Origin: Prostheceraeus crozeri
Taxonomy: Eukaryota > Platyhelminthes > Polycladida > Euryleptidae
NCBI GenBank assembly: GCA_907163375.1
Contig: CAJQUW010001866.1
Location: 434,001-498,000 of the forward strand
Reading direction: 5' to 3'
Length of the DNA stretch: 64,000 nt
The notes beneath the pieces are model-generated. The model was not told where the DNA came from. It ran no database searches and saw only the letters and a list, made by a program, of their open reading frames with translations. Shown here piece after piece: positions 31,150 to 64,000 of the stretch (position 1 is its first letter; the number at the start of each line of letters is the position of its first letter). Made by a program: the position numbers and the translations under genes.

Positions 31150-31412
31150 GCATTGTGTCGTCAAACTGACAATGATATCGGACGTTATTGTCCTTGGTGA
31201 AACCTTCTCGGACGTTGTCATTGTATGACGTCATCGAATATTTCGTCATCTTTTAGTTTAATTGATGACTGCGTTAGTAAATGTTGCAGCAAGTCGCTGA
31301 TTGATGACCTATGTTCAAATGAATAATTGATTGTCTCTGATTTGTATATAAACATTGTCTTTACCTTAATACAACACACTCATCTCGGAATCCAAACTGG
31401 TTTTCTATAGCA
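31150..31412 (+). repeat. Probable 5' LTR of a Ty3/Gypsy element
   Basis: The region precedes a gag gene and contains a TATA-like TGTATATAAACATTG at about 31345 and AATACAACA downstream. It ends in CA at 31412, three bases before a TGGCGTCGC primer-binding-like site. The left boundary is uncertain and the second LTR is outside the window, so the call cannot be checked here by LTR comparison. Confidence 0.5.
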
Positions 31413-31415
31413 ATT

Positions 31416-31433
31416 TGGCGTCGCGATCTACAA
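31416..31433 (+). promoter_or_regulatory. Candidate primer-binding site
   Basis: TGGCGTCGCGATC starts with TGG, complementary to a tRNA CCA end, just after the LTR-like region. The primer tRNA was not identified. Confidence 0.45.
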
Positions 31434-31470
31434 GGCTTCTCCGATTGCTTTAAAGGACTTCTTCGTGTCC

Positions 31471-31630
31471 ACTGCTGCATCTACAAGCCATTCTACTGGC
31501 CCCGAGAAGCACTGCTGCATCTACAAGCCATTCTATTGGCCCCGAGAAGTGCTGCTGCATCTACAAGCCATTCTACTGGCCCCGAGAAGTGCTGCTGCAT
31601 CTACTAGCCGATCTGCTGTTACTGCTGGGC
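31471..31630 (+). repeat. 40-bp tandem repeat in Gypsy leader
   Basis: Units start at 31471, 31511, 31551 and 31591, each with CTGCTGCATCTAC and GGCCCCGAGAAG. The fourth is partial and diverged. The 40-bp period rotates the reading frame, so any protein reading across it is not repeated in register. Confidence 0.9.
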
Positions 31631-32002
31631 CTGAAAAGTGCCTCTTCGAGCCCAAACTAAAGCTAATACATACGACGATTGGTTACCTTACCCGGTACCA
31701 TCGTGAACATTCAATGCAGGTCTTTCTTGGTCGGCAGTTCACTATTACACACTTACACACCCCTATCACCGTAAGTAAAACGCGTATTATTAAAATCACA
31801 ATCATTACACGTGAGGACTTACTAAAGCTACGTTAAGGCTAAGGACGTTAAGGCTAAGTTTGGACGTCATAGAACGTGTTGCAGATTACGTACTGTTTAC
31901 GTAATCTATCGGCCTACTGTACGTGACGATAAGGACGGTTACACAACGTTTAATTAACGTTAATAGGACCGATTACTTACCTTGTTTGCGTAATCCTTAC
32001 TA

Positions 32003-32505
32003 ATGGAGGGCCGCTTAGAAGAACTGGACACAGACGACCCTGTACAAGTAGTCGAATGGCACGAACGTTTTAGTCACTACTGCAAGATAAACTCTAAGAT
32101 TACAACGGCCAACGACGTTGACTACTATCTGACCCTTATCGGCAGACGCGCTTACAGTCTATTAAAAGGCTTAACCGTTCCCGCTAAGCCTGATACCAAG
32201 ACGGTTAAAGAATTACAAGCAATACTTGAGAGCCACATTTGCCCAACGCACTTCGAGGCAACCGAACGCGAACAGTTCCACAACCTGATGCCTCGTCCAG
32301 AGGAGTCGTGTCGCAACTTTCTGCTACGACTACAGAAGCAAGCTGCTAGATACAACTTCGGCGTCGAGCTGAATACACAAATAAGGGATCGTATCGTTGC
32401 AGGCATAAACGATAATGACTTGCAAAAGAAGCTACTAGCCCACGGTAAGCTGACATTCGATGTTGCCAGGAAGACGATAGAGACGTGGGACAATGTACAC
32501 AATTA
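32003..32505 (+). pseudogene. Gypsy gag, 5' part, interrupted by satellite array
   Basis: The open frame begins MEGRLEELDTDDPVQVVEWH and contains WHERFSHYC, LTLIGRRAYSLLKGL, LQAILESHICP and a FHNLMPRPEESCRNFLLRL-like block. This is the capsid-type gag of Ty3/Gypsy elements. The reading leaves gag and enters array sequence at about 32500 and stops within three codons. The zinc-knuckle and protease part resumes at 63457, about 31 kb downstream on the same strand. Confidence 0.85.
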
Positions 32506-32555
32506 ACAACAATGAGATTAAATACACGATAGATCAGATTGCCATGCAAAAGATG

Positions 32556-32629
32556 TGCGGCTGGTAGGATTCGAACCTACGACCAAGGTTAACTAGACCT
32601 GTGCTCTAACCAACTGAGCTACGAGCCAC
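32556..32629 (-). tRNA. tRNA-like gene, copy 1 (anticodon AGT as read)
   Basis: The minus-strand sequence begins GTGGCTCGTAGCTCAGTTGG and ends CCAGCCGCA. The A box TAGCTCAGTTGG and B box GGTTCGAATCC match the Pol III consensus, and a TTTT terminator lies about 5 nt downstream. A canonical 7-nt anticodon loop CTAGTTA gives AGT (Thr). The acceptor stem needs a bulged C on the 5' side, and position 37 is T, both unusual. CCA is not encoded. It may be a real tRNA gene or a tRNA-derived repeat. Confidence 0.7.
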
Positions 32630-32853
32630 TTACGCGACCCTGTCAATTGGCAGGATCAAACCCTCACCACCACACATCAGTTGTCAAGGCAATAATAATC
32701 AATGAATAAATAACACGTCACAATTGTGACCGCCGACATTAAGGCAAGTAGCGGGGATCGATTGTCCACCAAAGCATCTTAAGCCATGTCGTGAATGCAA
32801 TTAACAACAATGAGATTAAATACACGATAGATCAAATTGCCATGCAAAAGATG

Positions 32854-32927
32854 TGCGGCTGGTAGGATTCGAACCTACGACCAAGGTTAACTAGACCTGT
32901 GCTCTAACCAACTGAGCTACGAGCCAC
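32854..32927 (-). tRNA. tRNA-like gene, copy 2
   Basis: Standard 74-nt form, identical in boxes and anticodon to copy 1. Confidence 0.7.
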
Positions 32928-33151
32928 TTACGCGACCCTGTCAATTGGCAGGATCAAACCCTCACCACCACACATCAGTTGTCAAGGCAATAATAATCAA
33001 TGAATAAATAACACGTCACAATTGTGACCGCCGACATTAAGGCAAGTAGCGGGGATCGATTGTCCACCAAAGCATCTTAAGCCATGTCGTGAATGCAATT
33101 AACAACAATGAGATTAAATACACGATAGATCAGATTGCCATGCAAAAGATG

Positions 33152-33225
33152 TGCGGCTGGTAGGATTCGAACCTACGACCAAGGTTAACTAGACCTGTGC
33201 TCTAACCAACTGAGCTACGAGCCAC
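33152..33225 (-). tRNA. tRNA-like gene, copy 3
   Basis: Standard 74-nt form. Confidence 0.7.
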
Positions 33226-33449
33226 TTACGCGACTCTGTCAACTGGCAGGATCAAACCCTCACCACCACACATCAGTTGTCAAGGCAATAATAATCAATG
33301 AATAAATAACACGTCACAATTGTGACCGCCGACATTAAGGCAAGTAGCGGGGATCGATTGTCCACCAAAGCATCTTAAGCCATGTCGTGAATGCAATTAA
33401 CAACAATGAGATTAAATACACGATAGATCAAATTGCCATGCAGAAGATG

Positions 33450-33523
33450 TGCGGCTGGTAGGATTCGAACCTACGACCAAGGTTAACTAGACCTGTGCTC
33501 TAACCAACTGAGCTACGAGCCAC
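33450..33523 (-). tRNA. tRNA-like gene, copy 4 (terminator altered)
   Basis: Standard body. The downstream TTTT is interrupted (CTTCTGC instead of CTTTTGC), so termination may fail. Confidence 0.65.
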
Positions 33524-33747
33524 TTACGCAACCCTGTCAATTGGCAGGATCAAACCCTCACCACCACACATCAGTTGTCAAGGCAATAATAATCAATGAA
33601 TAAATAACACGTCACAATTGTGACCGCCGACATTAAGGCAAGTAGCGGGGATCGATTGTCCACCAAAGCATCTTAAGCCATGTCGTGAATGCAATTAACA
33701 ACAATGAGATTAAATACACGATAGATCAGATTGCCATGCAAAAGATG

Positions 33748-33828
33748 TGCGGCTGGTAGGATTCGAACCTACGACCGTCGACCAAGGTTAACTAGACCTG
33801 TGCTCTAACCAACCGAGCTACGAGCCAC
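33748..33828 (-). tRNA. tRNA-like gene, copy 5 (+7 variable region)
   Basis: Carries the 7-bp GTCGACC insertion that lengthens the variable region, and a substitution in the D arm (AACCGAGCT on the plus strand). Confidence 0.6.
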
Positions 33829-34052
33829 TTACGCGACTCTGTCAATTGGCAGGATCAAACCCTCACCACCACACATCAGTTGTCAAGGCAATAATAATCA
33901 ATGAATAAATAACACGTCACAATTGTGACCGCCGACATTAAGGCAAGTAGCGGGGATCGATTGTCCACCAAAGCATCTTAAGCCATGTCGTGAATGCAAT
34001 TAACAACAATGAGATTAAATACACGATAGATCAGATTGCCATGCAAAAGATG

Positions 34053-34126
34053 TGCGGCTGGTAGGATTCGAACCTACGACCAAGGTTAACTAGACCTGTG
34101 CTCTAACCAACTGAGCTACGAGCCAC
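34053..34126 (-). tRNA. tRNA-like gene, copy 6
   Basis: Standard 74-nt form. Confidence 0.7.
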
Positions 34127-34350
34127 TTACGCGACTCTGTCAACTGGCAGGATCAAACCCTCACCACCACACATCAGTTGTCAAAGCAATAATAATCAAT
34201 GAATAAATAACACGTCACAATTGTGACCGCCGACATTAAGGCAAGTAGCGGGGATCGATTGTCCACCAAAGCATCTTAAGCCATGTCGTGAATGCAATTA
34301 ACAAAAATGAGATTAAATACACGATAGATCAGATTGCCATGCAAAAGATG

Positions 34351-34424
34351 TGCGGCTGGTAGGATTCGAACCTACGACCAAGGTTAACTAGACCTGTGCT
34401 CTAACCAACTGAGCTACGAGCCAC
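34351..34424 (-). tRNA. tRNA-like gene, copy 7
   Basis: Standard form. The Polinton starts 40 bp away on the tRNA's upstream side. Confidence 0.7.
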
Positions 34425-34458
34425 TTACGCGACTCTGTCAACTGGCAGGATCAAACCC

Positions 34459-34464
34459 TCACCA
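34459..34464. repeat. Polinton target site duplication, left
   Basis: TCACCA, repeated exactly at 52142-52147. Removing the element and one copy restores a normal satellite unit. Confidence 0.95.
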
Positions 34465-34630
34465 AGTAGTATATAGTGTGACATCCGGCGCGACGCTTCG
34501 CTTCGCTTTGCTTCGCTTCGCTTGCGCCGGATGTCACACTTTTGCGGGTTTTTTCAAAAAATCAAAATTTCAAAAATTTAGGTAGACTTCAAATTTCACG
34601 TGGCCGAAGGCCGAAGGGCGAAAATTTAAG
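34465..34630 (+). repeat. Polinton left TIR (166 bp)
   Basis: Matches the inverse of 51976-52141 with one clear mismatch near the end. It contains an internal palindrome (GTGACATCCGGCGC against GCGCCGGATGTCAC) around a GCTTCG-type repeat, so the end can fold into a hairpin. Confidence 0.95.
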
Positions 34631-34748
34631 TTGTCTCAAAATATCACGTAATCGAAAATTTAAGTTGTCTCAAAATATCACGTGGTCTAAGAATTTTGAA
34701 AATTTAGGCAGACAAAAATTTAAGTTGTCTCAAAATATCACGTAGTCT
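34610..34748 (+). repeat. Subterminal repeats inside left TIR
   Basis: Three copies of AAAATTTAAGTTGTCTCAAA followed by ATATCACGT. They are present on the left side only. Confidence 0.8.
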
Positions 34749-34814
34749 CAATATACCAGGAGATTGTATTCAAAATATTTATTCAAAATATTTATTCAAA
34801 ATATTTCTTTAAAA

Positions 34815-35525
34815 ATGGAAGAAACAAAAATGGAAGAAACCGCGAGAATATATCCTTCGTTATCATATGAACGTAGTTCTACTTTAATGGACATTGAAAA
34901 GATTAACATTGAAAAAATGAACATTGAAAAACACAAAGATAGAGTTAGGTATATGAAAGATAAGGAATCTCAATTATTATTAAGATTAGAGCATTATAAA
35001 AAATTAAGAAAGAGATGGACCAAAGTTAAGAATGTAACACAAGGAATTGGCATATTCTTAACAATAAGTTTAGGTGCTTTAACAATTGTTATATATTCAG
35101 GTGTTTTATTAATTCCAGTAGTTGCTACAGCTTTAACAGGTACGGGTGTTTTTGCAACTTCACTTGTTACAATGTTAGATAAATCTTTAATAACTAAGAA
35201 ACGAAAATCATTAAAAACAAAGCATTTACATATTAAAGAAGTTTATGACAAATTACACTACTACTTTCAAAGAGTATGTGATGATAATGTTATTACGTTA
35301 GATGAGATTGAAACATTTGATCAAATAGCTAATGAAGTAAATCAAATATCATTTCAATTACAGTCCGAAAAAGTTGATGATAAGAATAAACAGGATGGCA
35401 AAATTTCTAGTGATGGTAAAATTTCTAATGAAGAAAATGACAAAATGTTTTTAGAAGAGCTAAAAACTTTAAGCGAAAATTTAAGCAAAACTTTATTAAA
35501 CAAAACTTTATTAAACAAAACTTAA
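34815..35525 (+). CDS. Polinton two-TM protein of unknown function
   Basis: I chose the ATG at 34815 because it follows the AAAA-ATG context seen at the other genes of this element, not the in-frame ATG at 34764. The product is 236 residues: a basic, coiled-coil-prone N-terminal region, two hydrophobic segments around residues 80-130 (ISLGALTIVIYSGVLLIPVV and the next), then a helical region with KHLHIKEVYDKL and DDNVITLDEIETFDQI. Proteins of this layout recur in animal Polintons, but I know of no function. The frame is intact, unlike many neighbours. The C-terminus has a short LLNKT repeat. Confidence 0.65.
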   Translation: MEETKMEETARIYPSLSYERSSTLMDIEKINIEKMNIEKHKDRVRYMKDKESQLLLRLEHYKKLRKRWTKVKNVTQGIGIFLTISLGALTIVIYSGVLLIPVVATALTGTGVFATSLVTMLDKSLITKKRKSLKTKHLHIKEVYDKLHYYFQRVCDDNVITLDEIETFDQIANEVNQISFQLQSEKVDDKNKQDGKISSDGKISNEENDKMFLEELKTLSENLSKTLLNKTLLNKT

Positions 35526-35646
35526 AAAGAGAAAACTTTAAACGAAAAGATGTCAAACAACAAAGCAATAAAAAAATAATTTGTTCAGTAAAATGTTTTT
35601 GCTGTATTCCAATGTTACCACAAAACTCAAATATTATATTTTAAAA

Positions 35647-36475
35647 ATGGATAAAATTAGAGCTGATAATTTTAAAAGAATAAAACAATTAGAAGAGTTA
35701 ATAAAACAAAGAAATATTATGAAAGAAAATCATCTTCAACATAGAATGATAAAAGCTGGTATTCAATCTGATATGTTTGAAAAAATGCAGCAAACCGAGC
35801 AAGTAAAAACTGATTTTGAAAAACTATGAAGCCATTTAAAACTCTTGAAAAAGAACTTACAAATAATGATAAACAAATTGATATAACAGATCCAGAGCAC
35901 ACAACTATTTTAGATGACTATGGATTACTAGAAGCAAACATTAATAAAAATTACCAAAATCTATGCAATTTGAACATTCTATTTCATTTATAGATGGAAA
36001 AACAATACCTAGATTTTATCTCGGACAAAAAGAAATATTTCCACAACCTTTTCGAGGTTTAATTTTTTCACCAGATAAATCTCCTTTTAATTTAGATAGA
36101 AATTTTGTTAATCTTTTAAGAGGAGCAGATTTAAATAATTATGCTGTAGAAGATCTCATAAAATATAAAGCTATGTTAGACAGAGTTGGTGCAGTAAAAT
36201 CTCTTAGACGTTATAAACAATTAGAAAATTTATTATCAACGGGAGTAAAAGTAGGAAAAGGTTTATCTGAAAAACAGAAAACAGAAACAACCATATTTTT
36301 ACCAGATGATCCACAAGAATTACTAAATGGATTAAATATTTTAATATCTGCAATAAAAGAAGGACATAATTCTAGTTTCAATAAAATTCATGCTATATTA
36401 AAAAGACTGTTAGAAAAGAAGATTCTAAATGAAGAGGATTATAAAAGTGTAGCTGAAATATGTTGTTGTTTTTAA
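35647..36475 (+). pseudogene. Polinton conserved ORF, frame-broken
   Basis: Three overlapping frames look like one decayed gene. The first, 35647-35829, starts MDKIRADNFKRIKQLEELI. The second, 35826-35993, overlaps its stop by ATGA. The third, 35963-36475, contains FYLGQKEIFPQPFRG and ends LKRLLEKKILNEEDYKSV. The ending (a leucine-rich helix, then ilkrLLekkIlneedyk) resembles a conserved Polinton protein of unknown role. Alternatively they are three small real genes. Overlap at both joins with no spacer favours frameshifts. Confidence 0.55.
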
Positions 36476-36532
36476 TTTTTTATAAAAAAAATATTTCATA
36501 AAAAAATATTTATTCAAAATTTTAACTAAAAA

Positions 36533-37311
36533 ATGTGTTCAGCAGATTTAGACAAAATTAATAATCATTTAGAAAATTTGACAGAGATTTTGGGTTCATC
36601 AAAATTTAGTACGACGTTAAAAATTATAACAACTACTTCATCACACACTTGTAATTTAGAACCCATTCTACATTTGGAAGAAAATAAAAATTATCAAATT
36701 GCATTGACTAGTTACTCCACATTTAACACTATTCAAAACGTTATCAAAGATGTGAATGATCAATTTAGATATTCTACTGATAAAGGCAAATCATGGAAAA
36801 TACTTACTTTTCTTCCTGGTTCTTACGAAGTTGAATCAATATCAAATGAAATTAAGAGAAATTTAGGTATACCATTTAAAGATAAGAAACAATTACATTT
36901 TGCAGTTGAACCGGCAGTTAATAAATTTTCTCTTACTTTAGACGAAAATCATCAAGTTGATTTTAATCATGATAGATCATTGTCAAAGCTATTAGGATTT
37001 AATAAACAAACCTATAGTCAAGGTTGTCATTTAGGTGAGAAGATTCCAAAAATAACTGAAATAAATTCAATTGTTATACATTGTGACATTATTGAAGGAG
37101 GATATATAAATGGTAAATTTTCAAATTTAATATTCAGTTTACTGTACCCATTGGTTATAGATTAAATGTAATTCCACAAACATTAATATATTTCCCTATT
37201 ACAAGAAAAACTATTAACAACATTCACATGAGAATCACTGATGAAAAAGGACAAGAAATAAATTTTGGAGGTGAAGAGATTATGATAGATCTTTTGGTTC
37301 GGGAGGTATAA
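36533..37311 (+). pseudogene. Polinton minor capsid (penton) protein, frameshifted
   Basis: It starts MCSADLDKIN. Recognisable blocks are EENKNYQIALTSYSTFNTI, RYSTDKGKSWKILTFLPGSY, LSKLLGF and INSIVIHCDIIEGGYINGK, then after a frame change at about 37130-37150 a block ending FGGEEIMIDLLVREV with TAA at 37309. This order matches the single-jelly-roll minor capsid protein of Polintons, which forms capsid vertices. One frameshift separates the C-terminal strands. It precedes the packaging ATPase. Confidence 0.8.
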
Positions 37312-37403
37312 ACTCCTACGTGACGCTAGAGAAGTCTAATTTTCTTCTTCTTCTTTAGAAACAAAAAATAAAAAAAATAAAAATAAAATTTTTTTTTTAA
37401 AAA

Positions 37404-38169
37404 ATGAGTGAACTACCTCCATTTAATAAAAAAAACTTAAATTTAATCATCATCCAAATTTATCTAATAAAGTTTTGTCAGTTATTTGTGGAAGATCAGG
37501 ATGTGGAAAAACATATCTATTATTTAAAATTTTAACGACTCCAAACTTTTTGGATTATAACAATCTTATAATTTATACAACAACGGCAGAACAACCCGTC
37601 TATCAATTTTTAAAATATGGATTTGAAAATAATCTTAAAAAACAGCAATTGCTTCATTATTCAAAGAATATGAAAAATCTGCAGATGAAGAAGAAATAAG
37701 TTCGTGGTGTGAAGAAGCAGCAAAAAATAATCAGTTAGTTGAAACCAATAAAAATAAGCATATAAAGATACAATTAATAGATGATAGTGGTAATATGCAA
37801 GATCCTAGTAAACTAGATAAAACAATGAAACATTGTGTAATTTTTGATGATTGTGTTAATGATAGAAATCAGTCAGTTCAGAGAAATTATTTCACAAGAG
37901 GTAGACATAATAACTGTAGTGTTTTTTATTTAACACAAAGTATGTATTCATTAGATGGAAGTGTTATTAGAAAGAATGCAAATATATTTATACTATTTGA
38001 AATAAATGCAAGAAACTTAAGTGATTTGTTAAGAGATTTATGTGTAAGAAATAAAGATGAATTTAAACAATCGTGTAACAATGCTTGGTCAAAAGATTAT
38101 GGATTAATCACAATTAATATTGATAAAAAAATTCATGATAGAGATATCGAACAATTGTTCTCTGACTGA
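37404..38169 (+). pseudogene. FtsK/HerA-type packaging ATPase, frameshifted
   Basis: The ATG at 37404 is followed after about 12 codons by a frame change. The next frame has Walker A GRSGCGKTYLLF and then IYTTTAEQPVYQFL. A second frame change near 37650-37680 leads to HCVIFDDCV (Walker B) and RGRHNNCSVFYLTQSMY (sensor region with Gln). This is the A32-like ATPase that pumps DNA into capsids in Polintons and large DNA viruses. Length with all parts is about 255 residues, normal for the family. Two frameshifts disable it. Confidence 0.85.
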
Positions 38170-38249
38170 AAGTCGATAGAAAATATTTTCGTGGAGTGAT
38201 CGAATAATTTTTTCTTATAAATTTTTTGTTTATAAAAATAAAAAAAAAT

Positions 38250-38555
38250 ATGTTGAATGCTTACAAGATAGAGCATGTACCAGTTTTAAAAGATTATCGT
38301 CATCCTACAAATCCTGCAAATTCGAAGAAAGAAGTTAGATTTTATTATCATCATAAATACGTAGCGCTCGTTACAGATTATAAAACAAAACATGGTATTA
38401 AACCGTGTGTTAAAACAAAAGACTTTCCACTTTGTTTAAGAAGTTTCCGAGTATTTTTGGCGTATAATAATTTATGGTGGTTGGTTAAGAAAGAACATTT
38501 AACAACACATGAATTAGAAACATTACATCAATTACATATTCCTGTGTATATGTAA
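38250..38555 (+). CDS. Small Polinton protein of unknown function
   Basis: 101 residues from the ATG at 38250, beginning MLNAYKIEHVPVLKDYRHP. It is rich in aromatic and basic residues (RFYYHHKYVALV, NNLWWLVKKEH). I do not recognise the family. It lies between the ATPase and the polymerase, has an intact frame and AT-rich spacers on both sides. Confidence 0.55.
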   Translation: MLNAYKIEHVPVLKDYRHPTNPANSKKEVRFYYHHKYVALVTDYKTKHGIKPCVKTKDFPLCLRSFRVFLAYNNLWWLVKKEHLTTHELETLHQLHIPVYM

Positions 38556-38604
38556 AAACGGAACCGAGGTTCTATGTGAAAATTCATTTTTTCTTTTAAA
38601 AAAT

Positions 38605-41600
38605 ATGAATCGTGAAATGTCTCTCGGACAAACGTCTAGGATTGATGAATTAATCAAGAAACAAACTTCTGAGTTTGATGCGCAAATTAAACATAGTAAA
38701 CGTAGTAAACGTATTAAAAAACAGAAACGTACTAGGCGTAGTATTAGACGTAGTACTAAAAAACAGAAACGTGGAACAAAAGAAATATTAGAAACTCCTA
38801 TTAGTGATATCTTTTTTGATGATAGAATTAAGGATGAACTTGGTGATGATTTATGTAATTTATTTAATCCAAATGAAATTAAATATGAAAATGTATCCTT
38901 TATTAATGTAGTAAATGATATGCGGAAACTTTTAGCAAATGGTAAAATTATTAATTTACTTGGAAAAGTTGTTAAAGATCAGGAAAATATAATTCAAAAT
39001 TTTTACGTAACCTTCTATAATAAAAAATCATTTGAAACATGGTTTTCGAATCTGGATGAGAAATCCGATGCTAACGAATGGATTTTTACAGGTAATATTA
39101 AATATGAAGATTTTGGAATGAAGTTAGTACAAAGATCGCATAGAGGGGCAGGGATTAATATGAAATATAGAATCAAAGAATATTTCGGTGAATATTGTTA
39201 TATTCCTTCTGAAGATTTTTGTTTTATTAAATGTTATAATGTTTTACGAGGTTTTAATGAAGAACAAGGAGAAATGATGAAAGAAATGTTTAATAATTTT
39301 TTATATAAAGAGAAAGCCACATCTAGAACAGGAGTAATGTCAAACTGCAAATTTTCTCAATTCAATAAATATTTTGGAGAATGCGTTCAATATTATAGTC
39401 CTGCCAATCGTCATTTAAATCCTAGAGGAATTGAAACGTTTCATAATTATGTTTATTACAATTATTTTCACGCAGGTTCAACAATTGGTCACTATTGTTT
39501 AATTGATAAATTTCATAAATTAAAAGCTATTAGAGAAATTGAAAATAGTTTCAAACCCATATATAAAACAGTTACTGATGAAAATCTAACAACGCGTCCA
39601 TATAAAATCATAACAAAGAAAAAAATTGACTATGGTTCAACATATATTTGGGATCTCGAAACTTTTCCCGATCCTAACTGTTCAACAGCTCATCCTATTC
39701 CTTACGCTGTAGGAGCTATTAATTTTAATAAATTTATATGTTTTTTACCGAAACAAAGATTGAAAGAATTAGAAACACGTTTGTTAAGTGATATGATTAA
39801 AATTAAACGATCAAAAGATGAAGATGAAATTAAAAAACTTAAAAAACAGATTAATGAGTATAATAATTTAACTGAATTAGAATTTAATAAACTTCAAAAT
39901 TGTGTGAAAATATTTACGAGAACTGAGGATGATGAATGTTCGATCGGGGGAAACCCAGAGGACGTATGTCCGATCCATCAATTTTTTAAAACTCTTGGAA
40001 AATTTAATTATTCTAGAGTAACTTTAATAGCTCACAATTCATCAGGTTCATCAGATTTAAAAACAATATGAAAAAAGATTCACCGTCAGGTAAATTAGCA
40101 CTTCAAACTATTATAATGAAATGTAGTTATCAACATGTAAAAACAAGTCTTTCTAAATGGTGTGAGAATTTTAAAATTCCTACGAATGTGTGTAAATTAA
40201 ATTATGAAATTGGAGACATAACACATGAAAATTATAAAGAAAAAGAAAATGAATGGAGACCATATTTAGTTAACGATATTCTTTCTTTAGCTTTTTGTAT
40301 CTACAAATATAATAATGTTATGCGAGATTTAGTTGGTGAAGATATAACTACTAATTTGTCATCCTCTGCTTTAACATTTAACGGTTGGATGAAAAGCGTA
40401 CAAAATGACAATACAAATATTCATTCTCATATAGATTTATGGGCTAGAAATTATATTAGAAAATCTGTTAAAGGTGGAAGAGTTTCAGCAAATATAAGAA
40501 AATACGTGTACATATCGCCATTTTGTAGCATCTTGTTGCCAATATTAAAACAGTATTTACCTGGTCGCTACGCTGGGGGGACTTTGTCCCTTGGTCGCTA
40601 CGCTGGTGGGGCTTTGTCCCCTGGAAGTAATTTAATAGATTTAATGAAACAGTATCGAGATTTAGGAGATAAAACTGAAATTTGTAAGAAAATTTCAAAT
40701 CAACTACTTGAACAAAAAAATGAATTTCTAATGGCTTTTGATGCAACATCTTTATATCCATCAGCTATGTATGATGAAAATTCAGAATACCCTAAAGCTG
40801 AATCAGCTAGAAAATTTCGTCAAGAAGAAGAGCCGGAAATAGTATATAAATTTAATACTCAAACATTTAGACCTAAAACTGGAATATTCTCTGTTGTGTT
40901 TCAATATCCGAATGATATGTTTTTCCAACCAGTTCCTATAAAAGATAAAGTTAAAAATCGAAATAATAATTCTCATGTAAAAGTAATCAGGTTTAGAAAT
41001 GGTATATGTTATGATGTATTAACTTCTATAGACATACAAGAAATTGTTAGATGTGGGGGAAAAATCTTACATATTACTGATGGTATAATTTATGAAAAAA
41101 ATTATCAAGTTTCACCATTTCGAAATTATATTAAAAAACTTTTTAATTTGAGAAAAAGATATAAAACAGAAGGAAATACTGTAGGTGATGAGTTAATTAA
41201 ATTATTGATGAATTCGCTATATGGCAAAACTGTGCAAAAAGATATAACCACTAAATATCATTTATGGAATGAGAATACATTGAGAAAAAATTTCACTCAA
41301 GAAGTAAAAGATTATGAAAAATTAAATGATGAACAATATTTAGCGAAAGTAGAAATGGAAGATGATGAATTTCTCAAAACTAATATTGTAAAAGATGGGA
41401 AGACGTCATTCATGCCATCACACTTAGGTTCTTTAATTTTTCTCACTCTAGAAGAATCATGAATAACTTTATTTTAGAAATTAATGGTTTCAAAGAAAAA
41501 TACATTCATTTTACAGATACTGATTCAATATACATTTCTAATGAGCTCTTCAATAAATTAGATGCTGCTGGATATGTTGGTGGGGAATTGTGTCAAGGAA

Positions 41601-42012: not shown

Positions 42013-42029
42013 TAATTTTTTTATTCCAT

Positions 42030-43572: not shown

Positions 43573-43574
43573 TT

Positions 43575-54722: not shown

Positions 54723-54796
54723 TGCGGCTGGTAGGATTCGAACCTACGACCAAGGTTAACTAGACCTGTGCTCTAACCAACTGAGCTACGAGCCAC
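54723..54796 (-). tRNA. tRNA-like gene, copy 16
   Basis: Standard form. Confidence 0.7.
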
Positions 54797-55020
54797 TTAC
54801 GCGACTCTGTCAATTGGCAGGATCAAACCCTCACCACCACACATCAGTTGTCAAGGCAATAATAATCAATGAATAAATAACACGTCACAATTGTGACCGC
54901 CGACATTAAGGCAAGTAGCGGGGATCGATTGTCCACCAAAGCATCTTAAGCCATGTCGTGAATGCAATTAACAACAATGAGATTAAATACACGATAGATC
55001 AGATTGCCATGCAAAAGATG

Positions 55021-55094
55021 TGCGGCTGGTAGGATTCGAACCTACGACCAAGTTTAACTAGACCTGTGCTCTAACCAACTGAGCTACGAGCCAC
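55021..55094 (-). tRNA. tRNA-like gene, copy 17
   Basis: CAAGTTT variant. Confidence 0.65.
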
Positions 55095-55318
55095 TTACGC
55101 GACTCTGTCAATTGGCAGGATCAAACCCTCACCACCACACATCAGTTGTCAAGGCAATAATAATCAATGAATAAATAACACGTCACAATTGTGACCGCCG
55201 ACATTAAGGCAAGTAGCGGGGATCGATTGTCCACCAAAGCATCTTAAGCCATGTCGTGAATGCAATTAACAACAATGAGATTAAATACACGATAGATCAG
55301 ATTGCCATGCAAAAGATG

Positions 55319-55399
55319 TGCGGCTGGTAGGATTCGAACCTACGACCGTCGACCAAGGTTAACTAGACCTGTGCTCTAACCAACTGAGCTACGAGCCAC
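55319..55399 (-). tRNA. tRNA-like gene, copy 18 (+7)
   Basis: Has the 7-bp insert. Confidence 0.6.
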
Positions 55400-55623
55400 T
55401 TACGCGACTCTGTCAATTGGCAGGATCAAACCCTCACCACCACACATCAGTTGTCAAGGCAATAATAATCAATGAATAAATAACACGTCACAATTGTGAC
55501 CGCCGACATTAAGGCAAGTAGCGGGGATCGATTGTCCACCAAAGCATCTTAAGCCATGTCGTGAATGCAATTAACAACAATGAAATTAAATACACGATAG
55601 ATCAAATTGCCATGCAAAAGATG

Positions 55624-55704
55624 TGCGGCTGGTAGGATTCGAACCTACGACCGTCGACCAAGGTTAACTAGACCTGTGCTCTAACCAACTGAGCTACGAG
55701 CCAC
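55624..55704 (-). tRNA. tRNA-like gene, copy 19 (+7)
   Basis: Has the 7-bp insert. Confidence 0.6.
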
Positions 55705-55928
55705 TTACGCGACTCTGTCAACTGGCAGGATCAAGCCCTCACCACCACACATCAGTTGTCAAGGCAATAATAATCAATGAATAAATAACACGTCACAATT
55801 GTGACCGCCGACATTAAGGCAAGTAGCGGGGATCGATTGTCCACGAAAGCATCTTAAGCCATGTCGTGAATGCAATTAACAACAATGAGATTAAATACAC
55901 GATAGATCAGATTGCCATGCAAAAGATG

Positions 55929-56002
55929 TGCGGCTGGTAGGATTCGAACCTACGACCAAGTTTAACTAGACCTGTGCTCTAACCAACTGAGCTACGAGCC
56001 AC
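55929..56002 (-). tRNA. tRNA-like gene, copy 20
   Basis: CAAGTTT variant. Confidence 0.65.
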
Positions 56003-56226
56003 TTACGCGACTCTGTCAATTGGCAGGATCAAACCCTCACCACCACACATCAGTTGTCAAGGCAATAATAATCAATGAATAAATAACACGTCACAATTGT
56101 GACCGCCGACATTAAGGCAAGTAGCGGGGATCGATTGTCCACGAAAGCATCTTAAGCCATGTCGTGAATGCAATTAACAACAATGAGATTAAATACACGA
56201 TAGATCAGATTGCCATGCAAAAGATG

Positions 56227-56300
56227 TGCGGCTGGTAGGATTCGAACCTACGACCAAGGTTAACTAGACCTGTGCTCTAACCAACTGAGCTACGAGCCAC
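56227..56300 (-). tRNA. tRNA-like gene, copy 21
   Basis: Standard form. Confidence 0.7.
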
Positions 56301-56524
56301 TTACGCGACTCTGTCAATTGGCAGGATCAAACCCTCACCACCACACATCAGTTGTCAAGGCAATAATAATCAATGAATAAATAACACGTCACAATTGTGA
56401 CCGCCGAAATTAAGGCAAGTAGCGGGGATCGATTGTCCACCAAAGCATCTTAAGCCATGTCGTGAATGCAATTAACAACAATGAGATTAAATACACGATA
56501 GATCAGATTGCCATGCAAAAGATG

Positions 56525-56598
56525 TGCGGCTGGTAGGATTCGAACCTACGACCAAGTTTAACTAGACCTGTGCTCTAACCAACTGAGCTACGAGCCAC
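56525..56598 (-). tRNA. tRNA-like gene, copy 22
   Basis: CAAGTTT variant. Confidence 0.65.
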
Positions 56599-56822
56599 TT
56601 ACGCGACTCTGTCAATTGGCAGGATCAAACCCTCACCACCACACATCAGTTGTCAAGGCAATAATAATCAATGAATAAATAACACGTCACAATTGTGACC
56701 GCCGACATTAAGGCAAGTAGCGGGGATCGATTGTCCACCAAAGCATCTTAAGCCATGTCGTGAATGCAATTAACAACAATGAGATTAAATACACGATAGA
56801 TCAAATTGCCATGCAAAAGATG

Positions 56823-56896
56823 TGCGGCTGGTAGGATTCGAACCTACGACAAAGGTTAACTAGACCTGTGCTCTAACCAACTGAGCTACGAGACAC
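56823..56896 (-). tRNA. tRNA-like gene, copy 23
   Basis: CGACAAAGG and GAGACAC variants. Confidence 0.6.
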
Positions 56897-57120
56897 TTAC
56901 GCGACTCTGTCAATTGGCAGGATCAAACCCTCACCACCACACATCAGTTGTCAAGGCAATAATAATCAATGAATAAATAACACGTCACAATTGTGACCGC
57001 CGACATTAAGGCAAGTAGCGGGGATCGATTGTCCACGAAAGCATCTTAAGCCATGTCGTGAATGCAATTAACAACAATGAGATTAAATACACGATAGATC
57101 AGATTGCCATGCAAAAGATG

Positions 57121-57194
57121 TGCGGCTGGTAGGATTCGAACCTACGACCAAGTTTAACTAGACCTGTGTTCTAACCAACTGAGCTACGAGCCAC
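57121..57194 (-). tRNA. tRNA-like gene, copy 24
   Basis: CAAGTTT variant plus a substitution in the D-stem region (GTGTTCTAAC on the plus strand). Confidence 0.6.
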
Positions 57195-57418
57195 TTACGC
57201 GACTCTGTCAACTGGCAGGATCAAACCCTCACCACCACACATCAGTTGTCAAGGCAATAATATTCAATGAATAAATAACACGTCACAATTGTGACCGCCG
57301 ACATTAAGGCAAGTAGCGGGGATCGATTGTCCACCAAAGCATCTTAAGCCATGTCGTGAATGCAATTAACAACAATGAGATTAAATACACGATAGATCAG
57401 ATTGCCATGCAAAAGATG

Positions 57419-57499
57419 TGCGGCTGGTAGGATTCGAACCTACGACCGTCGACCAAGGTTAACTAGACCTGTGCTCTAACCAACTGAGCTACGAGCCAC
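57419..57499 (-). tRNA. tRNA-like gene, copy 25 (+7)
   Basis: Has the 7-bp insert. Confidence 0.6.
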
Positions 57500-57723
57500 T
57501 TACGCGACTCTGTCAACTGGCAGGATCAAACCCTCACCACCACACATCAGTTGTCAAGGCAATAATAATCAATGAATAAATAACACGTCACAATTGTGAC
57601 CGCCGACATTAAGGCAAGTAGCGGGGATCGATTGTCCACCAAAGCATCTTAAGCCATGTCGTGAATGCAATTAACAACAATGAGATTAAATACACGATAG
57701 ATCAGATTGCCATGCAAAAGATG

Positions 57724-57804
57724 TGCGGCTGGTAGGATTCGAACCTACGACCGTCGACCAAGGTTAACTAGACCTGTGCTCTAACCAACCGAGCTACGAG
57801 CCAC
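57724..57804 (-). tRNA. tRNA-like gene, copy 26 (+7)
   Basis: Has the 7-bp insert and the AACCGAGCT D-arm change also seen in copy 5. Confidence 0.6.
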
Positions 57805-58028
57805 TTACGCGACTCTGTCAACTGGCAGGATCAAACCCTCACCACCACACATCAGTTGTCAAGGCAATAATAATCAATGAATAAATAACACGTCACAATT
57901 GTGACCGCCGAAATTAAGGCAAGTAGCGGGGATCGATTGTCCACCAAAGCATCTTAAGCCATGTCGTGAATGCAATTAACAACAATGAGATTAAATACAC
58001 GATAGATCAGATTGCCATGCAAAAGATG

Positions 58029-58102
58029 TGCGGCTGGTAGGATTCGAACCTACGACCAAGGTTAACTAGACCTGTGCTCTAACCAACTGAGCTACGAGAC
58101 AC
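58029..58102 (-). tRNA. tRNA-like gene, copy 27
   Basis: GAGACAC variant. Confidence 0.65.
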
Positions 58103-58326
58103 TTACGCGACTCTGTCAATTGGCAGGATCAAACCCTCACCACCACACATCAGTTGTCAAGGCAATAATAATCAATGAATAAATAACACGTCACAATTGT
58201 GACCGCCGACATTAAGGCAAGTAGCGGGGATCGATTGTCCACCAAAGCATCTTAAGCCATGTCGTGAATGCAATTAACAACAATGAAATTAAATACACGA
58301 TAGATCAGATTGCCATGCAAAAGATG

Positions 58327-58400
58327 TGCGGCTGGTAGGATTCGAACCTACGACAAAGGTTAACTAGACCTGTGCTCTAACCAACTGAGCTACGAGACAC
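58327..58400 (-). tRNA. tRNA-like gene, copy 28
   Basis: CGACAAAGG and GAGACAC variants. Confidence 0.6.
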
Positions 58401-58624
58401 TTACGCGACTCTGTCAATTGGCAGGATCAAACCCTCACCACCACACATCAGTTGTCAAGGCAATAATAATCAATGAATAAATAACACGTCACAATTGTGA
58501 CCGCCGACATTAAGGCAAGTAGCGGGGATCGATTGTCCACCAAAGCATCTTAAGCCATGTCGTGAATGCAATTAACAACAATGAGATTAAATACACGATA
58601 GATCAAATTGCCATGCAAAAGATG

Positions 58625-58705
58625 TGCGGCTGGTAGGATTCGAACCTACGACCGTCGACCAAGGTTAACTAGACCTGTGCTCTAACCAACTGAGCTACGA
58701 GTCAC
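58625..58705 (-). tRNA. tRNA-like gene, copy 29 (+7)
   Basis: Has the 7-bp insert; the 5' end is GAGTCAC on the plus strand. Confidence 0.6.
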
Positions 58706-58929
58706 TTACGCGACTCTGTCAACTGGCAGGATCAAGCCCTCACCACCACACATCAGTTGTCAAGGCAATAATAATCAATGAATAAATAACACGTCACAAT
58801 TGTGACCGCCGACATTAAGGCAAGTAGCGGGGATCGATTGTCCACCAAAGCATCTTAAGCCATGTCGTGAATGCAATTAACAACAATGAGATTAAATACA
58901 CGATAGATCAGATTGCCATGCAAAAGATG

Positions 58930-59003
58930 TGCGGCTGGTAGGATTCGAACCTACGACCAAGTTTAACTAGACCTGTGCTCTAACCAACTGAGCTACGAGC
59001 CAC
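58930..59003 (-). tRNA. tRNA-like gene, copy 30
   Basis: CAAGTTT variant. Confidence 0.65.
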
Positions 59004-59227
59004 TTACGCGACTCTGTCAATTGGCAGGATCAAACCCTCACCACCACACATCAGTTGTCAAGGCAATAATAATCAATGAATAAATAACACGTCACAATTG
59101 TGACCGCCGACATTAAGGCAAGTAGCGGGGATCGATTGTCCACCAAAGCATCTTAAGCCATGTCGTGAATGCAATTAACAACAATGAGATTAAATACACG
59201 ATAGATCAGATTGCCATGCAAAAGATG

Positions 59228-59308
59228 TGCGGCTGGTAGGATTCGAACCTACGACCGTCGACCAAGGTTAACTAGACCTGTGCTCTAACCAACTGAGCTA
59301 CGAGCCAC
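59228..59308 (-). tRNA. tRNA-like gene, copy 31 (+7)
   Basis: Has the 7-bp insert. Confidence 0.6.
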
Positions 59309-59532
59309 TTACGCGACTCTGTCAACTGGTAGGATCAAACCCTCACCACCACACATCAGTTGTCAAGGCAATAATAATCAATGAATAAATAACACGTCAC
59401 AATTGTGACCGCCGACATTAAGGCAAGTAGCGGGGATCGATTGTCCACCAAAGCATCTTAAGCCATGTCGTGAATGCAATTAACAACAATGAGATTAAAT
59501 ACACGATAGATCAGATTGCCATGCAAAAGATG

Positions 59533-59606
59533 TGCGGCTGGTAGGATTCGAACCTACGACCAAGTTTAACTAGACCTGTGCTCTAACCAACTGAGCTACG
59601 AGCCAC
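59533..59606 (-). tRNA. tRNA-like gene, copy 32
   Basis: CAAGTTT variant. Confidence 0.65.
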
Positions 59607-59830
59607 TTACGCGACTCTGTCAATTGGCAGGATCAAACCCTCACCACCACACATCAGTTGTCAAGGCAATAATAATCAATGAATAAATAACACGTCACAA
59701 TTGTGACCGCCGACATTAAGGCAAGTAGCGGGGATCGATTGTCCACCAAAGCATCTTAAGCCATGTCGTGAATGCAATTAACAACAATGAGATTAAATAC
59801 ACGATAGATCAGATTGCCATGCAAAAGATG

Positions 59831-59911
59831 TGCGGCTGGTAGGATTCGAACCTACGACCGTCGACCAAGGTTAACTAGACCTGTGCTCTAACCAACTGAG
59901 CTACGAGCCAC
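59831..59911 (-). tRNA. tRNA-like gene, copy 33 (+7)
   Basis: Has the 7-bp insert. Confidence 0.6.
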
Positions 59912-60135
59912 TTACGCGACTCTGTCAACTGGCAGGATCAAACCCTCACCACCACACATCAGTTGTCAAGGCAATAATAATCAATGAATAAATAACACGT
60001 CACAATTGTGACCGCCGACATTAAGGCAAGTAGCGGGGATCGATTGTCCACCAAAGCATCTTAAGCCATGTCGTGAATGCAATTAACAACAATGAGATTA
60101 AATACACGATAGATCAGATTGCCATGCAAAAGATG

Positions 60136-60209
60136 TGCGGCTGGTAGGATTCGAACCTACGACCAAGGTTAACTAGACCTGTGCTCTAACCAACTGAGCT
60201 ACGAGCCAC
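60136..60209 (-). tRNA. tRNA-like gene, copy 34
   Basis: Standard form. Confidence 0.7.
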
Positions 60210-60433
60210 TTACGCGACTCTGTCAATTGGCAGGATCAAACCCTCACCACCACACATCAGTTGTCAAGGCAATAATAATCAATGAATAAATAACACGTCA
60301 CAATTGTGACCGCCGACATTAAGGCAAGTAGCGGGGATCGATTGTCCACCAAAGCATCTTAAGCCATGTCGTGAATGCAATTAACAACAATGAGATTAAA
60401 TACACGATAGATCAGATTGCCATGCAAAAGATG

Positions 60434-60507
60434 TGCGGCTGGTAGGATTCGAACCTACGACAAAGGTTAACTAGACCTGTGCTCTAACCAACTGAGCTAC
60501 GAGACAC
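60434..60507 (-). tRNA. tRNA-like gene, copy 35
   Basis: CGACAAAGG and GAGACAC variants. Confidence 0.6.
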
Positions 60508-60731
60508 TTACGCGACTCTGTCAATTGGCAGGATCAAACCCTCACCACCACACATCAGTTGTCAAGGCAATAATAATCAATGAATAAATAACACGTCACA
60601 ATTGTGACCGCCGACATTAAGGCAAGTAGCGGGGATCGATTGTCCACCAAAGCATCTTAAGCCATGTCGTGAATGCAATTAACAACAATGAGATTAAATA
60701 CACGATAGATCAAATTGCCATGCAAAAGATG

Positions 60732-60812
60732 TGCGGCTGGTAGGATTCGAACCTACGACCGTCGACCAAGGTTAACTAGACCTGTGCTCTAACCAACTGA
60801 GCTACGAGCCAC
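60732..60812 (-). tRNA. tRNA-like gene, copy 36 (+7)
   Basis: Has the 7-bp insert. Confidence 0.6.
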
Positions 60813-61036
60813 TTACGCGACTCTGTCAACTGGCAGGATCAAGCCCTCACCACCACACATCAGTTGTCAAGGCAATAATAATCAATGAATAAATAACACG
60901 TCACAATTGTGACCGCCGACATTAAGGCAAGTAGCGGGGATCGATTGTCCACCAAAGCATCTTAAGCCATGTCGTGAATGCAATTAACAACAATGAGATT
61001 AAATACACGATAGATCAGATTGCCATGCAAAAGATG

Positions 61037-61117
61037 TGCGGCTGGTAGGATTCGAACCTACGACCGTCGACCAAGGTTAACTAGACCTGTGCTCTAACCA
61101 ACTGAGCTACGAGCCAC
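61037..61117 (-). tRNA. tRNA-like gene, copy 37 (+7)
   Basis: Has the 7-bp insert. Confidence 0.6.
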
Positions 61118-61341
61118 TTACGCGACTCTGTCAACTGGTAGGATCAAACCCTCACCACCACACATCAGTTGTCAAGGCAATAATAATCAATGAATAAATA
61201 ACACGTCACAATTGTGACCGCCGACATTAAGGCAAGTAGCGGGGATCGATTGTCCACCAAAGCATCTTAAGCCATGTCGTGAATGCAATTAACAACAATG
61301 AGATTAAATACACGATAGATCAGATTGCCATGCAAAAGATG

Positions 61342-61415
61342 TGCGGCTGGTAGGATTCGAACCTACGACCAAGGTTAACTAGACCTGTGCTCTAACCAAC
61401 TGAGCTACGAGCCAC
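61342..61415 (-). tRNA. tRNA-like gene, copy 38
   Basis: Standard form. Confidence 0.7.
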
Positions 61416-61639
61416 TTACGCGACTCTGTCAATTGGCAGGATCAAACCCTCACCACCACACATCAGTTGTCAAGGCAATAATAATCAATGAATAAATAAC
61501 ACGTCACAATTGTGACTGCCGACATTAAGGCAAGTAGCGGGGATCGATTGTCCACCAAAGCATCTTAAGCCATGTCGTGAATGCAATTAACAACAATGAA
61601 ATTAAATACACGATAGATCAGATTGCCATGCAAAAGATG

Positions 61640-61713
61640 TGCGGCTGGTAGGATTCGAACCTACGACCAAGTTTAACTAGACCTGTGCTCTAACCAACTG
61701 AGCTACGAGCCAC
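61640..61713 (-). tRNA. tRNA-like gene, copy 39
   Basis: CAAGTTT variant. Confidence 0.65.
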
Positions 61714-61937
61714 TTACGCGACTCTGTCAATTGGCAGGATCAAACCCTCACCACCACACATCAGTTGTCAAGGCAATAATAATCAATGAATAAATAACAC
61801 GTCACAATTGTGACCGCCGACATTAAGGCAAGTAGCGGGGATCGATTGTCCACCAAAGCATCTTAAGCCATGTCGTGAATGCAATTAACAACAATGAGAT
61901 TAAATACACGATAGATCAGATTGCCATGCAAAAGATG

Positions 61938-62018
61938 TGCGGCTGGTAGGATTCGAACCTACGACCGTCGACCAAGGTTAACTAGACCTGTGCTCTAACC
62001 AACTGAGCTACGAGCCAC
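61938..62018 (-). tRNA. tRNA-like gene, copy 40 (+7)
   Basis: Has the 7-bp insert. Confidence 0.6.
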
Positions 62019-62242
62019 TTACGCGACTCTGTCAACTGGTAGGATCAAACCCTCACCACCACACATCAGTTGTCAAGGCAATAATAATCAATGAATAAAT
62101 AACACGTCACAATTGTGACCGCCGACATTAAGGCAAGTAGCGGGGATCGATTGTCCACCAAAGCATCTTAAGCCATGTCGTGAATGCAATTAACAACAAT
62201 GAGATTAAATACACGATAGATCAGATTGCCATGCAAAAGATG

Positions 62243-62316
62243 TGCGGCTGGTAGGATTCGAACCTACGACCAAGGTTAACTAGACCTGTGCTCTAACCAA
62301 CTGAGCTACGAGCCAC
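62243..62316 (-). tRNA. tRNA-like gene, copy 41
   Basis: Standard form. Confidence 0.7.
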
Positions 62317-62540
62317 TTACGCGACTCTGTCAATTGGCAGGATCAAACCCTCACCACCACACATCAGTTGTCAAGGCAATAATAATCAATGAATAAATAA
62401 CACGTCACAATTGTGACCGCCGACATTAAGGCAAGTAGCGGGGATCGATTGTCCACCAAAGCATCTTAAGCCATGTCGTGAATGCAATTAACAACAATGA
62501 GATTAAATACACGATAGATCAGATTGCCATGCAAAAGATG

Positions 62541-62614
62541 TGCGGCTGGTAGGATTCGAACCTACGACCAAGGTTAACTAGACCTGTGCTCTAACCAACT
62601 GAGCTACGAGCCAC
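62541..62614 (-). tRNA. tRNA-like gene, copy 42
   Basis: Standard form. Confidence 0.7.
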
Positions 62615-62838
62615 TTACGCGACTCTGTCAACTGGCAGGATCAAACCCTCACCACCACACATCAGTTGTCAAGGCAATAATAATCAATGAATAAATAACA
62701 CGTCACAATTGTGACCGCCGACATTAAGGCAAGTAGCGGGGATCGATTGTCCACGAAAGCATCTTAAGCCATGTCGTGAATGCAATTAACAACAATGAGA
62801 TTAAATACACGATAGATCAGATTGCCATGCAAAAGATG

Positions 62839-62919
62839 TGCGGCTGGTAGGATTCGAACCTACGACCGTCGACCAAGGTTAACTAGACCTGTGCTCTAAC
62901 CAACTGAGCTACGAGCCAC
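62839..62919 (-). tRNA. tRNA-like gene, copy 43 (+7)
   Basis: Has the 7-bp insert. Confidence 0.6.
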
Positions 62920-63143
62920 TTACGCGACTCTGTCAACTGGTAGGATCAAACCCTCACCACCACACATCAGTTGTCAAGGCAATAATAATCAATGAATAAA
63001 TAACACGTCACAATTGTGACCGCCGACATTAAGGCAAGTAGCGGGGATCGATTGTCCACCAAAGCATCTTAAGCCATGTCGTGAATGCAATTAACAACAA
63101 TGAGATTAAATACACGATAGATCAGATTGCCATGCAAAAGATG

Positions 63144-63217
63144 TGCGGCTGGTAGGATTCGAACCTACGACAAAGGTTAACTAGACCTGTGCTCTAACCA
63201 ACTGAGCTACGAGCCAC
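63144..63217 (-). tRNA. tRNA-like gene, copy 44
   Basis: CGACAAAGG variant. Last complete copy. Confidence 0.65.
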
Positions 63218-63441
63218 TTACGCGACTCTGTCAACTGGCAGGATCAAGCCCTCACCACCACACATCAGTTGTCAAGGCAATAATAATCAATGAATAAATA
63301 ACACGTCACAATTGTGACTGCCGACATTAAGGCAAGTAGCGGGGATCGATTGTCCACCAAAGCATCTTAAGCCATGTCGTGAATGCAATTAACAACAATG
63401 AAATTAAATACACGATAGATCAGATTGCCATGCAAAAGATG

Positions 63442-63456
63442 TGCGGCTGGTAGGAT
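63442..63456 (-). pseudogene. Truncated tRNA-like stub at array end
   Basis: Only the 3' 15 nt of the tRNA-like sequence remain before Gypsy sequence resumes with CGCAAGGCAG. Confidence 0.85.
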
Positions 63457-63984
63457 CGCAAGGCAGTAAGGTATGAGAAGCTGTACAACAGGAACGCACA
63501 ACGACGTTACTCTGCACCCAAGTCTACAGTGTTTACAAAGAAGCCACTTCCGGCTAACACTTTTCAACCTAAGCCACAGTCGAAACCAGTAGCATTACGT
63601 CAGCAACAGTCGACTGGTGCATGCAACTCCAGTGGAGGGCGGCATGAGAGAAAAACGTGCTAGTTCAGGTCAGCTAAGTGCTACAAATGCCAACGCACAG
63701 GCCACATTGCAAAAGTTTGCCGTAGCCAACCTACACAGCAGCGTATGCGTCAAGCTAACACAGTTACTGTAGAACCTGAGACTGGGTCGACTTACGAGTG
63801 GGATGATCGTAAACACTTCTTGGATCTTACCATCGACGGGGAGCATCTGTATCACGACATCCAGTTGACTCCAGGCAGAACGCATAAGTTTATCGTCGAC
63901 ACAGGCAGTCCTGTCAGTTTTTTTGCCGAGCTCTGCGGTACAACGGCTTCGCCTAAGCGACCAGATCAGACATTCCACTGCTAA
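63457..63984 (+). pseudogene. Gypsy gag zinc knuckle and protease part
   Basis: This is the continuation of the gag/pol region that stops at 32.5 kb. It begins RKAVRYEKLYNRNAQRRYS and then has a basic Pro-rich stretch. The first knuckle is damaged (Cys replaced in CNSSGGRHERKTC, then an in-frame TAG at 63661). A normal CCHC knuckle CYKCQRTGHIAKVCR follows, then an aspartic protease motif FIVDTGSPVSF. The stop at 63982-63984 and the TAG show decay. The rest of pol lies beyond the window end. Confidence 0.85.
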
Positions 63985-64000
63985 CATACGAGGTGTCTCC

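Follow-up and report, generated by a model that had tools for sequence, protein, structure and literature searches.

How did a tandem array of tRNA-like units come to lie within the gag gene of a Gypsy retroelement? The question arises from a 64,000-nt stretch of the genome of the flatworm Prostheceraeus crozeri (hereafter, the window; G000:C1532:434001-498000 within the 2.05-Gb assembly), for which a sequence-only reading had described a Polinton inside a tRNA-like array inside a Gypsy gag. This three-layer nest was borne out by the coordinates, by the terminal inverted repeats (TIRs) and target site duplication (TSD) of the Polinton, by the long terminal repeat (LTR) pair of the Gypsy element, and by empty sites elsewhere. 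The array appears to be a single insertion of an unclassified, RNA-copied mobile repeat, and we consider it probable (roughly 70%) that it arose as one insertion of a non-autonomous retroposon, through 5'-truncated reverse transcription of what would have been a circular or multimeric template. The unit family is of interest, read as a tRNA-like retroposon that is copied over multiple laps and whose variable end has a hot spot at A58; judged from sequence, it has one fixed end, a variable end that may lie several laps away, unrelated targets, and no general TSD.

The array totals approximately 13 kb and 44 units, in a left segment of 1,965 bp (32500-34464, 6.6 units) and a right segment of 11,315 bp (52142-63456, 37.7 units), both on the minus strand, which is also the putative RNA strand, with its 3' end at approximately 32502. 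The sequence-only reading had taken these segments as one array split by a Polinton with a 6-bp duplication, and TCACCA was indeed found on both sides. Of the units in the array, 43 are complete: 30 measure 298 bp, and 13, which have a 7-base insertion within the tRNA-like part, measure 305 bp. The Polinton interrupts one further unit, and the last unit is partial. The tRNA-like domain of the first unit (32555-32629, minus strand), called by ARAGORN as tRNA-Thr (AGT), is repeated along the array: ARAGORN predicted 44 tRNA-like genes, every one on the minus strand, and Rfam gave 43 tRNA matches scoring 31.9-44.2 bits, lower than is usual for working tRNAs. By eye, and relative to the consensus of the RNA polymerase III boxes, this part also holds A- and B-box-like sequences. 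On the left, the array starts with the fixed 3' end of the repeat (32502-32514, minus strand; ATTAACAACAATG in plus orientation), a boundary common to the dispersed copies. On the right, its putative 5' end (63453-63458, minus strand) terminates with GGAT, at the base preceding A58 in the T loop, and is followed by CG and then by gag. One exact 28-mer search gave no match to the unit in viral contigs.

The host Gypsy element is delimited by a 5' LTR at 31120-31412 on the plus strand (TGCGACAG...CTATAGCA), identified by its match to a 3' LTR located outside the window (C1532:500934-501226). Aligned over 299 columns, the two LTRs show 97.66% similarity; GATTT directly precedes the first and follows the second. 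The sequence-only reading had placed the break in gag at about 32500 and 63457 on one strand; the 5' part, recognized by homologues P0001-P0007 and by the empty sites, runs from 31994 to 32502 (plus strand), where it is cut off by the array, and the 3' part, recognized by P0004-P0007 and by a Pfam zinc knuckle match (PF00098), resumes at 63459 on the same strand and runs past the window end at 64000. The final three bases (CAA) of the 5' part could stem from either the target or the unit. The 3' part also carries the protease-like motif DTGSP. Both pieces match the same Gypsy polyproteins, P0004-P0007, and the residues separating the matched gag parts number 45-55 in these relatives versus 49-54 in the right piece of the window. 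Because of these shared relatives, the LTR pair with GATTT, and the uninterrupted copies elsewhere, the two pieces belong to one Gypsy element, and the concern that the parts might come from different families was settled in favor of one. The single LTR pair, GATTT on both sides, and the empty sites ruled out both a juxtaposition of separate Gypsy copies and a fortuitous join; the window contains no Ns. The element has the features of Ty3/Gypsy, namely LTRs, a gag zinc knuckle, a TSD, and relatives with reverse transcriptase and integrase, these two enzymes being known from the relatives and those of the host copy lying beyond the window.

In genome DNA searches with each gag half (40 of 47 candidates scored per search), the right half lay at most 16 bases after the left one in 36 of the 39 other scored left-gag copies, none of which was seen to bear a unit; two of the 39 had no right half among the matches listed. 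The junction in 20 fetched copies was uninterrupted and alike in 16 and had small local differences in three. In the remaining one, on contig C514 (G000:C514:233106-241132), approximately 7.6 kb separates the gag halves at a point no more than about ten bases from that in the window, and the 400 bases adjoining its right half match neither the unit nor the window. The empty gag site reads ...GACAATGTAAACAAGGCAGT...; the array of the window is flanked by CAA on both sides, either a 3-bp duplication or bases common to the unit, and CG is added at its right end relative to the empty site. The array was thus inserted into gag, one of the origins that had been proposed from the letters alone. The right gag piece shares 91.4-96.6% identity with the 20 copies, ten of which average 99.2% among themselves, suggesting that the Gypsy copy in the window is older or divergent. 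Relatives of gag were sought in viral contigs, and none was confirmed. The Gypsy leader between the LTR and gag includes a 40-bp minisatellite of 3.5 copies (31470-31609).

A genome search with one unit returned at least 144 matches (40 of 518 candidates scored), and 37 other loci, chosen by similarity, were compared: 34 places fetched with flanks and three long arrays fetched whole. In window orientation, the left edge fell at unit positions 1-6 in 36 of the 37 loci, the exception being L021; on the putative RNA of the tRNA strand, this boundary, ATTAACAACAATG, is the 3' end. The boundary pattern had 443 matches in the genome, some of which may be inner units with a changed base, and its reversed control had none. 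The right edge, by contrast with this fixed end, varies over the whole unit. The flanks are unrelated except for common repeats, and at one locus (L014) two relatives of the target site show that at most a few bases were lost or duplicated on insertion. The unit is therefore an independently dispersed mobile family, whose fixed 3' and variable 5' ends, read on the tRNA strand, resemble the products of target-primed reverse transcription. Target duplications were assessed against expectations taken from cross-pairs of edges: edge words of at least 7 bases occurred in four of 35 loci (1.1 expected, a slight excess; L021 and L041, with rearranged edges, L043-L048, and L050 were left out) and in one of 57 (2.5 expected). 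Abutting edge matches of at least 3 bases were in small excess (46/57 loci versus 37.1 expected). No A-rich tail was present at the unit-locus edges displayed.

The variable end was characterized in a second set of 80 places, taken in listed order from 100 shown of the 443 boundary matches; being selected by the fixed end, this set bears on the variable end only. C1303:46755, which equals L011, was skipped, as were two places on C2314 that adjoin another and are likely inner units with a changed base. Removal of L126, a duplicate of L116, left 79 loci, including L150, which resembles a duplicate of L077. Insertions exceeded one unit at 27 of the 79, and copy length in the family ranged from less than one to approximately 44 units. 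Among 48 loci, the first and second laps agreed at 0.863 of polymorphic sites, versus 0.604 ± 0.036 when shuffled between loci. Three long arrays, measuring 16.6, 20.3, and 6.6 + 21.2 units, are nearly uniform inside, with variant sets that differ between arrays. They lie on C10126, C11405, and C3601, and nearly uniform holds with the exception that 3 of 29 units on C11405 differ at several sites. The lap agreement and the near-uniform long arrays suggest that one template, either a circle or a fairly uniform multimer, was mostly copied repeatedly. The C11405 array consists of two arms in inverted orientation, the second of which is without the fixed end, a layout like that produced by twin priming. 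A second inverted arrangement was noticed by eye at L110, where a stretch that reads as the unit in inverted orientation directly adjoins the fixed end of a further copy.

Right ends could be counted at 75 loci, as L088, L132, L135, and L151 ran off the fetched stretch. Eight of the 75 fell at unit positions 71-72 (five at 71 and three at 72), versus 0.5 expected (P ~5e-8, assuming that ends are evenly spread over the unit). Among the first 57 ends, seven were at 71-72, and no 2-base window equalled this number in 20,000 uniform simulations. More broadly, 14 of 75 ends lay at 63-72 and none at 73-86. In the similarity-chosen set, ends were found at 71 (L010, L022, and L026), 70 (L018 and L036), 69 (L021), and 67 (L015). 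Position 71 is the complement of T-loop base 59 of the tRNA, one base before A58, and the right end of the window array is at the same base; its trailing CG is what the template would give next if A58 were left out, perhaps by coincidence. A58 of tRNAs is widely 1-methyladenosine (m1A). In human immunodeficiency virus (HIV), plus-strand synthesis stops before m1A58 of the primer tRNA-Lys3 (PMC13191261), so that, as in the unit family, reverse transcription ends just before A58. The tRNA of HIV is the retroviral primer, whereas the tRNA-like domain of the unit is internal to the mobile RNA and its modification is presumed. We infer that the hot spot would reflect a reverse transcriptase stop at m1A58.

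Taken together, these observations suggest the following course of events. A tRNA-strand RNA, circular or multimeric, would have served as template; a borrowed reverse transcriptase would have started at ...GUUGUUAAU and dissociated after differing numbers of laps, in many cases at A58 when this base was m1A. In the window, the complementary DNA would have integrated in antisense orientation into gag of an older Gypsy copy, its right end lying at the A58 stop. Unequal exchange may subsequently have enlarged the multimer, and the Polinton would have inserted into the array afterwards. The retroposon reading rests on the left edge shared by 36 of 37 loci, the 443 versus 0 boundary matches, the unrelated flanks, the 27 of 79 insertions longer than one unit, the right-end hot spot, the lap agreement, the near-uniform long arrays, the twin-priming-like pair on C11405, the minus-strand fold described below, the uninterrupted gag of other copies, and the HIV precedent (PMC13191261).

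Several results weigh against this reading. Within the window array, unit variants are mixed in a mosaic, and exact repeats of up to 674 bp recur at several spacings; this pattern departs from uniform copying and fits growth in place. Laps disagreed at 21 of 48 multi-unit loci, with eight below 0.7, and only five locus-private variants occurred in all units of their locus, versus 55 in only some. At a fall-off of approximately 0.4% per nt, 17-44 laps are impossible in one memoryless run; the longest arrays therefore probably grew in place or came from a more processive class of events. The follow-up of 18 right ends contributed one at 71-72 (P 0.11), which is no proof alone; in the similarity-chosen set, the ends of L024 (at 80) and C10126 (at 86) fall within the interval where none of the 75 lay; and a second cluster at 174-183 (9/75) is without explanation. 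Read-through copies showed no excess of changes at the A58 position (2/86 loci), and they may derive from unmodified RNA. The family has no general TSD, unlike most LINE (long interspersed element)-driven insertions, which carry one. No LINE with the same 3' end, of the kind that partners a tRNA-derived SINE, was found: the 13-nt end followed by a non-family base had 136 matches versus 126 for the control, a comparison that longer sharing would escape.

Among the alternatives, the closest is a variant of the same reading in which the template was a linear multimeric transcript of genomic arrays, without circles. It is a real contender, if short of even odds: laps agree strongly yet imperfectly (0.863), as neighboring array units would, and mosaic arrays such as that of the window exist, but the three near-uniform long arrays with different variant sets would need equally uniform sources. 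Rolling-circle DNA transposition of a Helitron-like or Rep-type kind, in which a DNA circle nicked at a fixed origin is copied for a variable number of laps and pasted without target duplication, would likewise account for one end being fixed while the other varies, for uniform multimers, and for the lack of a general TSD. We regard it as unlikely, since it does not predict that copies should stop within the T loop at the base preceding A58, that one strand should fold more strongly, or that a twin-priming-like inversion should arise.

The signs of unequal exchange in the window array, with its long exact repeats at several spacings, would also suit an ordinary satellite, in which pieces of a tandem repeat containing a tRNA were excised, or formed circular DNA, and re-inserted at random. 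Such pieces should begin at random phases, but the left edges of 36 of 37 loci fall in a single 6-base interval; this contradicts random-phase pieces and makes the satellite explanation highly improbable. Least credible of all is a unit carried and spread by Gypsy as a passenger, as the sequence-only reading had suggested. The location of the window array in gag is what would speak for it, and it is contradicted, as far as the scored copies go, by the 36 of 39 uninterrupted left-gag copies with no unit seen among them and by the unrelated flanks of units elsewhere. The other origin considered there, amplification within a Gypsy copy, survives only as a shorter multimer growing after it had landed in gag.

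As a circle, the minus-strand monomer has a predicted folding energy of -99.6 kcal/mol (z -6.0 versus 100 dinucleotide shuffles; z -3.1 for the plus strand), and the predicted structure takes the form of a long rod surrounding the tRNA-like part. This recalls metazoan non-LTR retrozymes (Cervera and de la Pena 2020), which have a type I hammerhead per unit and low-GC monomers of approximately 300 bp, with RNA circles described as highly self-paired (PMC7229834); their multimers are thought to be products of circular RNA reverse transcription (PMC7229834 and PMC7761336). The unit, at 298 bp and 44% GC, falls within the size (150-450 bp), low-GC, and dimer-to-multimer ranges of retrozymes. As far as these sources go, monomer size, low GC, dimers to long multimers, and strong self-pairing are common to both, whereas the hammerhead is proper to retrozymes, and the tRNA-like domain, the fixed end, and the hot spot at the other end are proper to the unit family. 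No Rfam ribozyme match up to E 10 was obtained in a 1-kb stretch of the array, and no CTGANGA core with GAAA was present on either strand of the unit consensus. Because the defining hammerhead was not found, the family was not filed as a retrozyme; it may nonetheless work like one. More speculatively, and with the odds somewhat against it, the family might be a ribozyme-free retrozyme, an A58-modified tRNA-like circular RNA copied for multiple laps, whose 5' ends would record tRNA methylase action and whose circles would seed large satellites.

Other tRNA-related repeats resemble the family in part. tRNA-derived SINEs (short interspersed elements) and SINE-derived satellites (PMC10702118) share with it the tRNA-like part with A- and B-box-like sequence, which part ARAGORN and Rfam matched here, and the dispersed and tandem forms; the unit family differs in that 27 of 79 insertions exceed one unit, in its one shared end, in the lack of a general TSD, in having no A-rich tail at the edges displayed, and in the internal position of the tRNA-like part, and it does not consist of monomers with target duplications. 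Helenus TRIMs (terminal-repeat retrotransposons in miniature) with tRNA-like LTRs are also small mobile tRNA-like carriers with some tandem arrays (PMC10886601), whereas the unit family has one variable end, no general TSD, and no visible LTR-internal-LTR layout. It thus does not fit Helenus, which has two LTRs, an internal part with a primer binding site and a polypurine tract (neither of which was searched for in the unit), fixed ends, and a 4-5-bp TSD. The available portion of a catalogue of LINE-1 chimeras with other RNAs does not contain the words m1A or T-loop (PMC13174262), and no description of the combination of traits was found in the titles and abstract openings of the open-access papers covered by the search.

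The unit family links tRNA-derived retroposons, circle-templated multimers, and satellite DNA, which are usually treated apart. If the hot spot does correspond to m1A58, genomes keep a readable record of RNA modification at retrotransposition. Retrozyme-like repeats are described as having no conserved motif from which the machinery moving them is deducible (PMC7761336), and the fixed 3' end offers a handle on this machinery in animals.

The Polinton/Maverick that splits the array spans 17.7 kb (34465-52141, plus strand) and is bounded by 166-bp TIRs with one mismatch and by the 6-bp TSD TCACCA (34459-34464 and 52142-52147, plus strand). Polinton TIRs begin with AG. Pfam matches to DNA polymerase B, an integrase core, and a double-jelly-roll domain complete the set of TIRs, 6-bp TSD, polymerase B, retroviral-type integrase, and double-jelly-roll capsid that defines these elements; the integrase match (E 3e-07, 31.1 bits) is just under the Pfam cut-off of 32.6. 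The DNA polymerase region (38518-42012) is split over three overlapping or adjacent frames, with the polymerase match in the middle frame only, so this copy is probably broken. The frame at 47476-48651 fuses a phospholipase A2-like domain with the integrase core. Elsewhere in the window, we observed a DDE transposase fragment (1559-1939), a protein kinase fragment (13526-14005), and three short minus-strand reading frames (24099-24566, 25106-25513, and 30088-30453) that lack a Pfam match, appear mutually similar by eye, and perhaps form a local gene family.

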